A DNA stretch of 64,000 nucleotides from Nautilus pompilius. Taxonomy: Eukaryota > Mollusca > Cephalopoda > Nautilida > Nautilidae. The notes under the pieces were generated by a model. It saw nothing but the letters and a program-made list of their open reading frames with translations. It did no database searches and had not been told where the DNA came from. This document shows, piece after piece, positions 21,024 to 64,000 of this stretch. Location of the stretch: assembly GCA_018389105.1 (NCBI GenBank), contig JACATO010002140.1, forward strand, positions 273,501 to 337,500, read 5' to 3'. Position 1 is the stretch's first letter, and the number at the start of each line of letters is the position of its first letter. A program made the position numbers and the translations under genes.

Positions 21024-21074
<51 letters not shown>

Positions 21075-21103
21075 TATAATAATAATAATAAATAATAATA
21101 ATA

Positions 21104-21170
<67 letters not shown>
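21024..21170. repeat. (AAT)n microsatellite
   Basis: About 147 bases of AAT/ATA trinucleotide repeat with three single-base interruptions, followed by a short GTT run. Confidence 0.97.
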
Positions 21171-24645: not shown

Positions 24646-25271
<626 letters not shown>

Positions 25272-25280
25272 ACAAAATAA

Positions 25281-32585: not shown

Positions 32586-32690
<105 letters not shown>

Positions 32691-37616: not shown

Positions 37617-38092
37617 CAAAATTAGGACCAGGGTCAAGTTTAAGGTCAGGATCAGGGTTAGGGCTAGGGTCAGAGTTAGGGTTAGAGTTAGGGAGAGGAT
37701 AAGGGTTAGGGTCAGGGTGAGGGCTAGGTTCAGGGTCGGAGTTAAGGTTAAAGTTAGGGAGAAGTTAAGGTTAGGGTTAGGATTAGCGTTAGGGTTAGGT
37801 CAGGGTTGGGTTTAGGATCAGGGTCAAGTTTAGGATCAGGGTTAGGTTTAGGGAGAGGATAAGAGTTAGGGTCATAGTGAGGGCTAGGTTCAGGGTCGGA
37901 GTTAAGGTTAAAGTTAGGGAGAAGCTAAGAGTTAGGGTTAAGATTAGCGTTAGGGTTAGGTCAGGGTTAGGTTTAGGATAAGGGTCTGGGTTAGGGTTAG
38001 GGTCGGGGTAGGATTAGAGTTAGGATCAAGGTTAGGGACAGAATAAGGGTTAGGGTCACGGTTATGGTTAGGATTAGGGTTAGGGTCAGATG
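37617..38092 (+). repeat. degenerate TTAGGG-like array with 160 bp higher-order period
   Basis: About 475 bases consist of hexamer-like variants such as TTAGGG, TCAGGG, TTAAGG and GATCAGGG. A block starting GAGAGGATAAG at 37693 recurs at 37853, exactly 160 bases later, with near-identity through GTCGGAGTTAAGG and beyond. A partial third copy begins near 38033. The array is thus a local tandem duplication of an already diverged telomere-like sequence. No subtelomeric position can be inferred from it alone. Confidence 0.9.
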
Positions 38093-43506: not shown

Positions 43507-47775
<4,269 letters not shown>

Positions 47776-47869: not shown

Positions 47870-48437
<568 letters not shown>

Positions 48438-53359: not shown

Positions 53360-53698
53360 TTATTTTTTCTTTTAAATTTCGGTTGTTTTTTGTTTTGTTA
53401 TATTCGTATTCAGGCGGCATATTTTTCTAAAACAAATGCCATAGACACCAGGAGATTGGCGAAAAATTACGAATGAGTCAGCGGCAAACTTTCAAAAGAA
53501 CCCACATCCTAAAGGTTTCTGCCTGTAGACGTACAGCACAATACAATCAGGGATTTGCAAACGCTTCTCCAATCTGTTGATCGCTTGAAATACACATCGG
53601 AAAGCATTTCGATTTATTAGCTACTCCATTTCTTTTTTTTAAAAAAAGAGCGGTTTCTTTAAAAAATTAGGCCGAAGATAACAAAAAAAAAGCGATTA

Positions 53699-54211
53699 GA
53701 CCAGTGATTCTGTTTTAGACCAGTGATTCTGTATTAGACCAGTGATTCTGTTTTAGACCAGTGATTCTGTATTAGACCAGTGATTCTGTTTTAGACCAGT
53801 GATTCTGTATTAGAATAGTGATTCTGTTTTAGACCAGTGATTCTGTTTTAGACCAGTGATTCTGTTTTAGACCAGTAATTCTGTATTAGACCAGTAATTC
53901 TGTATTAGACCAGTGATTCTGTTTTAGACCAGTGATTCTGTTTTAGACCAGTGATTCTGTTTTAGACCAGTGATTCTGTTTTAGACCAGTAATTCTGTAT
54001 TAGACCAGTAATTCTGTATTAGACCAGTGATTCTGTTTTAGACCAGTGATTCTGTTTTAGACCAGTAATTCTGTATTAGACCAGTGATTCTGTTTTAGAC
54101 CAGTGATTCTGTATTAGAATAGTGATTCTGTATTAGACCAGTTATTCTGTATTAGACCAGTGATTCTGTTTTAGACCAGTGATTCTGTATTAGACCAGTG
54201 ATTCTGTAATT
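53699..54211 (+). repeat. 19 bp minisatellite, about 27 copies
   Basis: The unit GACCAGTGATTCTGTTTTA repeats in strict 19-base register from 53699 to about 54211. Two main variable positions give TTTTA or TATTA at the end and GTGATT or GTAATT inside. A few units have GAATAGTG. Variant order repeats in blocks, so multi-unit duplications took place. Stops occur in the unit, so it is not coding. Confidence 0.97.
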
Positions 54212-56225: not shown

Positions 56226-57181
<956 letters not shown>

Positions 57182-60300: not shown

Positions 60301-61039
60301 AATGCTTCTTTGATTTTGCTTTCCTTTTTTTTTATAAATGTAATTAAAACATTATAAATATAAGTAAATTTTGGAAAACTCCACTAACTTGTAATGTTAA
60401 TACAAAAAAACAATAATAATACGGGAATAGTTCTTATCCACAAAATAATCCTACATTGAGTTAGTAGGAGGACTTACGAACTTTTTCCACGATAGCGCGC
60501 AGACTGCTGGAATCTTACAAAGCCGAAGTCTTCCAAGAAGTTTCTTTCACCAGTGATGGAAAGTAAAGAAACAATGAGCCGTGAAAGAAATTTCATTCTC
60601 GAAAAATGCCTCTTGATTTATCGAAGAGGTTCAGCAACTTTGCAGAACTGGATAATTGAATCTACACCAGAGTACTGACGAATGGTAAAAATGAATAAAG
60701 AAAAAACAGACCTGAAATGTGTTAATGGATCTCTCAACTTTTATCAGTGAATTTTTAGGACATGTAATTATCTACCCTTGTTGAACGACTGATTCCATTA
60801 CGTCTTTTATGCACCAATATGCTCACCCAGTAGATCTGAAACATTTCTGGCAAAAAATGTGGACATAATACTTATTTTAAAATTTGTTTATAGGAGACAC
60901 CAAATTACGGCTCTCGGCCCTTTAAGCGGCGATATTTCTTCACCTTTCACCGTGAAAGTCGCGGCCATCGACTGGCGGCAAAAAAAGGCAAAAGTTCGAA
61001 AGAGAAGCGTCGGAGTTTTAAAAAGGAATGAGCAAGTGA
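57317..61039. other. no supported gene
   Basis: Mixed AT-rich sequence. A frame on the minus strand at 59570-59962 (130 codons) overlaps one on the plus strand and shows no family motifs. TGACGTCA occurs at about 58447. No RNA gene is recognised. Confidence 0.45.
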
Positions 61040-64000
61040 CTACTTTTGCATTCCGTCTGATAATGAAATCGTGCATCATAGCTTCAGTTCTGCTACGGCC
61101 ATGTTAAAAGAATACAATATTCTGCTACGGCCATGTTCAAAAAATACAATATTCTGCTACGGCCATGTTCAAAGAATACAATATTCTGCTACGGCCATGT
61201 TAAAAGAATACAATATTCTGCTACGGCCATGTTAAAAGAATACAATATTCTGCTACGGCCATGTTCAAAGAATACAATATTCTGCTACGGCCATGTTCAA
61301 AGAATGCAATATTATGCTACGGCCATGTTAAAAGAATACGATATTCTGCTACGGCCATGTTCAAAGAATACAATATTCTGCTACGGCCATGTTCAAAGAA
61401 TGCAATATTATGCTACGGCCATGTTAAAAGAATACGATATTCTGCTACGGCCATGTTCAAAGAATACAATATTCTGCTACGGCCATGTTCAAAGAATACA
61501 ATATTCTGCTACGGCCATGTTAAAAGAATACAATATTCTGCTACGGCCATGTTAAAAGAATACCATATTCAGCTACGGCCATGTTAAAAGAATACAATAT
61601 TCTGCTACGGCCATGTTAAAAGAATACAATATTCTGCTACGGCCATGTTAAAAGAATACAATATTCTGCTACGGCCATGTTCAAAGTATACAATATTCTG
61701 CTACGTCCATGTTCAAAGAATGCAATATTATGCTACGGCCATGTTAAAAGAATACGATATTCTGCTACGGCCATGTTCAAAGAATACGATAATCTGCTAC
61801 GGCCATGTTCAAAGAATAAAAATATTCTGCTACGGCCATGTTAAAAGAATACAATATTCTGCTACGGCCATGTTCAAAGAATGCAATATTATGCTACGGC
61901 CATGTTAAAAGAATACGATATTCTGCTACGGCCATGTTCAAAGAATACAATATTCTGCTACGGCCATGTTCAAAGAATACAATATTCTGCTACGGCCATG
62001 TTAAAAGAATACAATATTCTGCTACGGCCATGTTAAAAGAATACAATATTCAGCTACGGCCATGTTAAAAGAATACAATATTCTGCTACGGCCATGTTCA
62101 AAGAATACAATATTCTGCTACGGCCATGTTAAAAGAATACAATATTCTGCTACGGCCATGTTAAAAGAATACAATATTCTGCTACGGCCATGTTAAAAGA
62201 ATACAATATTCAGCTACGGCCATGTTAAAAGAATACAATATTCTGCTACGGCCATGTTCAAAGAATACAATATTCTGCTACGTCCATGTTCAAAGAATGC
62301 AATATTATGCTACGGCCATGTTAAAAGAATGCAATATTCTGCTACGGCCATGTTCAAAGAATACAATATTCTGCTACGGCCATGTTCAAAGAATACAATA
62401 TTCAGCTACGGCCATGTTCAAAGAATACAATATTCTGCTACGGCCATGTTAAAAGAATACAATATTCTGCTACGGCCATGTTAAAAGAATACAATATTCA
62501 GCTACGGCCATGTTAAAAGAATACAATATTCAGCTACGGCCATGTTAAAAGAATACAATATTCTGCTACGGCCATGTTCATAGAATACAATATTCGCCTG
62601 CGTTACAAAACTAATCATAAGATGCTCGATTCACTTGCTGAACTTACAGGAAAACTTTACGAAGAGAAGGTGGGGGCTGATCGAAGAAATCACTGACTCA
62701 ACAACAGAATATACTTACGAAATTTAAATCCCCAAAATGGAAGCTGCGGTCGGAGACGAGGTAGCTCGTATAATCATTCAAAGTGGAAAACCGTTTGCAT
62801 CGAAGTCATTGATAATACAATGCATGCTGGAAACAGCAGCCGAAGTCCGTCTGCAAAAAGTGCGGGCTTTAGGCAAGGTAAGTTTATCGGCAAGCAGAGC
62901 GACAAGAAGAGTCGGGAATATAAACTCTGTCTTCTGCTCTCAACTACGTGGAAAAGCTAGAAACTTCCAGAATTTCCCCCCTATGAGTTTGTATGAGAGC
63001 GCGGACGTTGGCGATGCTGGTTGAGTTGCTCGCGTTTGCCCGAGAAATTGGTAAGCGTTTCACTGCTAATAAAGAACTGGCCGAGCTATGACACTTTGAA
63101 GGTACGGATATTGGTCAGGGTATCTTCTCGAATCTCAAATAATTAAGAATTCCAATTCAAAATGGGAACAGTTTGGCGATGTGACAGCAGATGGTGCAAA
63201 AAAGGATGCTTGGAAGAATAAATACCGGAATGCGGTTCAAGCAGCTTGATGAACCATGGGCCGTATATCCACTGCCTGATTCACCACCAATTTCTCTGCG
63301 AAAATACCCTGATCTCGAAATGGTAAAGGAAGCTGCGGCCAAGAACTCGGTCACAGGCAATGCAAAGATTTCTTCATCAATTTTAGAAACTTAATATGGC
63401 TGCGTGCTTTATCGTACAGGTGTTAGGTGGCTCCTTGAGGGCAGGGTACTGAGAAAATTACTTTTAAATCTGAGTTAAGGAAATTACAACATTTATGAAA
63501 AAAAAACAACAAAAGACAGAATAAAGCTAGCATTTCTCGCTGATCTTATGCAGCTCCTCGACAATTTACACCTCAAACTGGAAGATAAGGGCAGACTTGG
63601 TTTGTGATGTATACGGTGCAGTTAAGTCTTTCCCGAGGAAATTGCCATTTTAACTAAAAGACAGGAACTTTGTCCACGCTAGAGCTTATAAGGAAGAGAC
63701 TAATGTTTAAAAAAAACACGTGTGAGCGGGGGACTTTCCACGTGCATTTGTTTTAGATTATAGTGAGAAACCGCAGAAATAGGTTGAGCTCAGATTTAAC
63801 GATTTTGAAAGGAATTCTACGTAAATTGGCCTTCTCGAAAAGCTCTTCAAAATGGAGGTAGACTGTGCATCTGAATTATTTCATAAGAAATTAACCGGGA
63901 TCCACCCATCAGACATTTGAAAGATAAATTCAACAAATCTGATTAATTTTTTTTTTAAATCCTCACCAGAGGAACAGTTTCCAGAATAAAGAAAATTTTA
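61040..64000 (+). pseudogene. hAT-type transposase relic (GTF2IRD2/SCAND3/ZBED-like) with an expanded BED-finger segment; runs off the window
   Basis: After the tandem array the frame reads AMFIEYNIRLRYKTNHKM and then LDSLAELTGKLYEEK (about 62573-62671). This matches the second half of a BED finger, familiar in this family as (A/V)FKEYNIRRHYETKH. LTQQQNILTKFKSPK follows. The main body starts near 62737 with IIIQSGKPF (62773-62799), then LSASRATRRV and LRGKARNFQNFPPMSLYES, where the usual LDEST Asp is lost. Next come ELAEL and HFEGTDIGQGIFSNLK (63093-63140) and DVTADGAKK (about 63177-63203), corresponding to VTTDGAPS. LAFLADLMQLLDNLHLKLED (63527-63586) and VYGAVKSFPRKL precede the edge. At least five stops or frameshifts interrupt it. 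Sequence before the array (about 61040-61091) may hold the finger's first half, but this part is uncertain. Confidence 0.82.
61092..62596 (+). repeat. 32 bp tandem array, about 47 copies, derived from a BED-finger coding segment
   Basis: The unit runs GCTACGGCCATGTT(A/C)AAAG followed by AATACAATATTCT. Forty-six starts fall in 32-base register from 61092, with one 33-base unit at 61796-61828. Recurrent variants include ACGATATTCT, TGCAATATTAT, ATATTCAGC and GTCCATG. The block at 61380-61571 (six units) reappears at 61861-62052, and a three-unit block is tandemly doubled at 61252-61443. Translated in the frame of GCCATG, a unit gives SATAM(F/L)KEYNI. Because 32 is not a multiple of three and the unit has no stop in any forward frame, every forward frame is open across several units. 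The final unit (from 62565) runs without a break into the rest of the finger. Confidence 0.97.

Follow-up and report, generated by a model that had tools for sequence, protein, structure and literature searches.

Background

Tandem repeats that began inside transposons are a well known phenomenon and many have been reviewed (PMC9659126, PMC6947457, PMC12628747). The closest described system is CficCl-61-40, a satellite of Chenopodium (PMC7320549). It goes back to a CACTA-like element, Jozin, in whose tnp2 transposase a coding piece of ~40 bp served as the start monomer; the array is attached to an incomplete transposase fragment, one array holds 94.4 monomers and the satellite makes up 3.80% of one genome. 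Minisatellites are also known to derive from transposons such as the human Alu (PMC3389668, PMC9659126, PMC6947457). In those cases an internal piece of the transposon is amplified in tandem, and short flanking direct repeats are the proposed initiator. Tandem repeats inside DNA transposons can seed satellites as well, as in the Helitron DINE-TR1 (PMC6947457) and the arrays internal to MITEs (PMC12628747), where the array lies within the transposon body.

The locus described here shares something with each of these systems and is identical to none of them. It lies in a 64-kb stretch of Nautilus pompilius DNA, which we call the window. The Chenopodium satellite comes from a plant CACTA element, has the start-monomer fragment attached and lies on several contigs, whereas here the source is hAT-type, both halves of a zinc finger remain and one locus was found. 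The named examples of transposon-derived minisatellites, as far as the accessible parts of those papers go, are mostly Alu, B1 and LTR elements, whereas here the source is the coding sequence of a DNA transposon. The DINE-TR1 and MITE arrays, as those sources describe them, are central or internal repeats of a Helitron or a MITE, but this one sits in one dead hAT-type copy, within its transposase gene. Among the titles and abstract openings listed from the open-licence literature, none described an array that had arisen in a hAT finger. Transposon-born, even transposase-born, arrays are already known; the coding sequence of a hAT-type finger is an added source. The general view of transposons as a source of minisatellites is unchanged. 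What the locus offers is a snapshot of the birth of a tandem repeat, with the parent gene, the exact edges, the one-copy relatives and the finished array all in one genome.

The minisatellite

The term minisatellite usually stands for tandem units some ten to a hundred bp long that are present in tens of copies, and the array is one by that definition. There is no consensus on the term (PMC6947457). The array and its one irregular unit are as follows.

61088 to 62592, plus strand: minisatellite of 47 units of 32 bases each (unit 23 has 33), consensus TTCTGCTACGGCCATGTT(A/C)AAAGAATACAATA; from Tandem Repeats Finder, a pattern match and a unit script
61792 to 61824, plus strand: unit 23, the sole 33-base unit; with it the array exceeds a single unit by 1473 bases (3 x 491)

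Run on the 64-kb window, Tandem Repeats Finder reports a period of 32 with 47.1 copies and 94% matches at 61088-62595. When 61088-62592 is divided by script into 47 head-to-tail units, 45 of the 46 spacings are 32 and one is 33. An earlier reading of this DNA made from the letters alone (the sequence-only reading) had proposed a 47-copy, 32-base minisatellite at 61092..62671. The size and copy number hold apart from the one longer unit; the end coordinate takes in 79 bases of the right flank. Mean identity among the units is 94.7% (to stay in register, the 33-base unit was compared without one of its bases). Variation is confined to 11 of the 32 columns, and the main split is at column 19, which is A or C (25 vs 22 units). 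There are 14 unit types, 8 of which are present only once. With at most 3 mismatches allowed, a unit pattern has 46 matches in the window vs 0 in 100 shuffles; it misses unit 23, which is too diverged.

Tandem arrays are often mis-sized in assemblies, and the copy number given here comes from a single assembly. The array could then be real while its length is an artefact, either collapsed or over-extended. We consider this quite unlikely. The window has no N bases, and simple over-extension would presumably tend to copy the unit types that are each seen once.

Both halves of one finger

What stands on either side of the array bears on where it came from.

60981 to 61087, plus strand: left flank, holding the N-terminal half of the finger region of the transposase; it shares its frame with unit 1 and has one stop; from tblastn, translation, alignment with relatives and blastn
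62561 to 62684, plus strand: unit 47, His half of the finger and linker (SATAMFIEYNIRLRYKTNHKMLDSLAELTGKLYEEKVGADR); tblastn match to L048 residues 51-80, protein match to L024 at E 8.9e-5
62685 to 63998, plus strand: decayed transposase body, broken by stops and frame changes; it is homologous up to the window end, with N beyond

Unit 47 continues directly as AMFIEYNIRLRYKTNHKM, which is the His half of the finger, and then into the linker and the hAT body, just as the sequence-only reading had it. That reading gave the right side of the finger correctly but did not recognize the left flank as its other half. With the frame of unit 1 carried leftward, translation of the left flank gives KKGKSSKEKRRSFKKE*ASDYFCIPSDNEIVHHSF, followed by the unit; in the same frame it can also be written RRSFKKE*ASDYFCIPSDNEIVHHSFSSATAMLKEYNI. 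The corresponding fingers of two relatives in the same genome read TNDYF*FQSNNKIMCLVCNSDIAIFREC (L021) and TNDYYCIQSNDTLMCLIYNSSIAIFKEYNI (L011). In an ungapped alignment with the relatives the two expected zinc cysteines of the left flank have become His and Phe. We also considered a one-base deletion in this flank and rejected it, because the ungapped alignment, with both cysteines replaced, fits better.

The relative L048, which has an open frame of 612 aa, matches both sides of the array in order. By tblastn its residues 15-60 fall at 60981-61121 (E 0.023 for this left piece alone), 51-80 at 62565-62684, 114-198 at 62758-63015, 201-414 at 63023-63598 and 411-546 at 63588-63998; the four right-hand pieces have a joint E of 4e-22 in an alignment that holds stops. 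Both sides of the array have a match to residues 51-60, and these residues are the unit. The same search gave one chance-like reverse match (E 0.62). The finger pieces are recovered only in this narrower and more sensitive search; default tblastn over the whole window at E 0.01 keeps just residues 201-414 (E 5e-6). Support for the left flank that is independent of tblastn comes from its DNA matches in nine relatives (blastn).

Relatives and the rest of the assembly

The right flank (62593-63400) matches 13 further rows in the genome (65-83% identity), and L024 comes from a protein search; with L021 and L022 counted as one place, this makes 13 distinct places. All 11 relatives that can be aligned across the finger carry one unit at the homologous position. 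The other two (L019 and L020) have no left-flank match and do not reach the finger, so they were left out. For three of the 11 (L014, L016 and L018) the position over the unit depends mainly on the multiple alignment; L014 aligns weakly (18/32 unit bases), and L017 is without 3 unit bases. In five relatives (L011, L013, L015, L017 and L024) the matches to the two flanks both reach into the unit and overlap by 27-32 bases, which fits the prediction of a single unit. L024 differs at 4 of 32 bases from unit variant B, the form of the unit that we picked as likely older. These one-unit relatives, together with L048 matching on both sides, support the proposal of the sequence-only reading that the array originated inside a hAT-type transposase finger.

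The finger family is wider than these places. Of 895 candidates 150 were scored, and 22 of these have an open frame around them of 300 aa or more. Those newly read from the scored matches are L047, L048 and L049, of which L047 and L048 have open frames. In the piece shown, covering six query loci, L036 and L037, which share contig C95, agree to 87% over some 2 kb while the other printed pairs are 63-80% alike; this suggests a later duplication.

The array itself was found at one locus. Across the 727.6 Mb searched, the unit pattern (at most 3 mismatches) has 46 matches, all 46 of them in the array, vs 0 for a reversed-pattern control. A 70-base query from the array has 20 matches, again all at the array. 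These counts apply to an assembly that may be incomplete and whose DNA searches skip very common words, and the real genome may hold more. The array is a locus-restricted minisatellite and not long multi-locus satellite DNA. The genome-wide search that the sequence-only reading had proposed thus turned up no second array in the assembly, and the suggestion that the array might seed a wider satellite spread found no support. The two observations that the same reading had named as counter-evidence, relatives lacking a unit-like sequence at the finger and solitary arrays at many loci, are both absent from this assembly.

The same evidence bears on the idea that the satellite existed first and that a hAT element inserted beside it or captured it. 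There is precedent for considering this. Capture of tandem repeats by an ancestral MITE is discussed in one paper (PMC12628747), and for the Chenopodium satellite capture is named as a less likely alternative (PMC7320549). Here, however, the array is flanked by both halves of one finger and its unit is the middle of that very finger. The aligned relatives hold the unit once at the same place, and no further array was found in the assembly. We regard a pre-existing array as very unlikely.

Coding status

The sequence-only reading held that each unit encodes AM(F/L)KEYNI. This is exactly so for 31 of the 47 units when each is read in its own frame, but the other 16 are variants, one of them with a stop, and the frame is not constant. 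It shifts by two bases per unit, so that 16, 15 and 16 units fall in the three frames, and across the array the three forward frames hold 9, 11 and 8 stops. Since 32 is not a multiple of 3, the frames rotate, and stops occur in all three, the array encodes no repeated peptide; as a coding repeat it is ruled out. It is scarcely credible that the array was amplified while the gene still coded, as a functional expansion of a protein with repeated AM(F/L)KEYNI: the net extra length of 1473 bases is divisible by 3 and the left flank and unit 47 share one frame, but a multiple of 3 is expected by chance in one of three cases, a 32-base unit rotates the frame, the stops leave no continuous open frame now, and both zinc cysteines on the left are replaced.

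Family of the transposase

By homology along the transposase, the parent gene appears to belong to the hAT-type transposases with a Spin-doc-like zinc finger. Pfam calls the finger of L047 and L048 zf-C2H2_12, the Spin-doc zinc-finger (PF18658), above its cut-off; in the three shorter fingers of L011, L013 and L021 the same family scores below the cut-off. The sequence-only reading had called this a BED finger. Pfam does not support that name: zf-BED is not matched at E up to 0.1 for L047 and L048 or at E up to 1 for the three shorter fingers. We take the likeness of the transposase to GTF2IRD2, SCAND3 and ZBED proteins as an assumption. The hAT C-terminal dimerisation region (PF05699) scores 28.5 bits in L048 vs a cut-off of 21.4, and is unreported for L047; the part of the window's copy that corresponds to it lies mostly past the readable end. 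Pfam assigns no family to the window's right finger piece alone (the finger there is interrupted by the array) or to three pieces of the window's transposase copy. For two body pieces taken from relatives the outcome was no family, or a single weak and unrelated match. A search of solved structures with L048 gave 0 matches at E up to 1.

hAT transposons have terminal inverted repeats and an 8-bp target duplication. On the left, homology ends near 60981-61003, and the relatives share further leftward sequence among themselves. The right end of the element falls in sequence reading N. A hAT end motif has 4 matches in the window, which is not above chance (10 of 100 shuffles have as many).

How the array arose

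We believe that local amplification within the finger very probably gave rise to the array. For the first step, the sequence of events and the way the array grew we propose the following. A copy of an old hAT-type transposase gene with a Spin-doc-like N-terminal zinc finger died in this genome. A 32-bp piece of the finger (codons for ..SATAM-F/L-KEYNI) would have been duplicated a single time; the likeliest route is replication slippage or end joining between the tiny direct repeats that border it. From two copies, more slippage or unequal exchange would have taken the array to 47 units, in part several units at a time. With a unit length that 3 does not divide and many stops in the copy, the array is free of coding constraint and has no encoded product.

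Whether the process began with slippage between the edge repeats is, in our view, about an even chance. The unit has TTC at both of its edges (GTTC on the left, ATTC on the right). Among the 11 relatives a full 4-bp match is present in 3, as ATTC/ATTC in L021 and L024 and ATTT/ATTT in L010; L011 and L013 have ATTC/ATTT and the remaining six have other pairs. As a control, 4-bp direct repeats 20-60 bp apart number 20-72 per relative. Repeats of this kind are so common that we reject the microhomology as proof of the mechanism; it is compatible with the model and not diagnostic of the site. In the model of Haber and Louis minisatellites start from short flanking repeats; it is cited with repeats of 5-10 bp (PMC6947457, PMC3389668), but the edge repeat in the window is just 3 bp.

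The order of unit types gives some information about growth in blocks. Repeated four-unit words number 4 vs 0.46 in shuffled unit order, and 0.6% of shuffles reach as many. For the smallest lag distance the family-wise p is 0.024. Repeated words extend to at most 5 units, a length that 6% of shuffles also reach, so the evidence for growth in blocks is modest. There is no higher-order repeat of fixed size in the array; units at lags of 10, 13, 15, 28 and 29 are just mildly closer to one another.

The age of the amplification can be approached by comparing the unit with its flanks. Variant B is 76.5% identical to the 11 relatives, vs 65.6% and 63.4% for the two flanks. Among the relatives themselves, excluding the pair L010/L011, the unit is 74.6% identical and the flanks 71.0% and 70.8%. 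The commoner variant A gives 74.2% against the relatives, so the contrast with the flanks is weaker, yet it remains. One possible reading is that the array may be a fossil bed, though we think this less likely than not, as the comparison covers 32 columns, uses related sequences and depends on which variant is chosen: amplification would have come early in the decay of the gene, and turnover among the units would have kept old finger sequence while the flanks decayed. If this is true and general, tandem amplification preserves readable pieces of dead genes.

Other repeats in the window

A second minisatellite lies at 53696-54207 (19 bp x 26.9 copies of TTAGACCAGTGATTCTGTT, 93% matches by Tandem Repeats Finder). 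Its pattern has 25 matches genome-wide, all 25 in its own array. It contains CAGTGATTCTGT, which is reminiscent of hAT-type terminal repeats and which we take only as a lead. At 37636-38086 there is a degenerate telomere-like AGGGTT stretch with nested periods of 66, 160 and 41 bases. Long microsatellites of the ATT/TTA type occur at 21024-21170, 25104-25272, 32586-32688, 44991-45142, 48207-48338 and 56226-56358.
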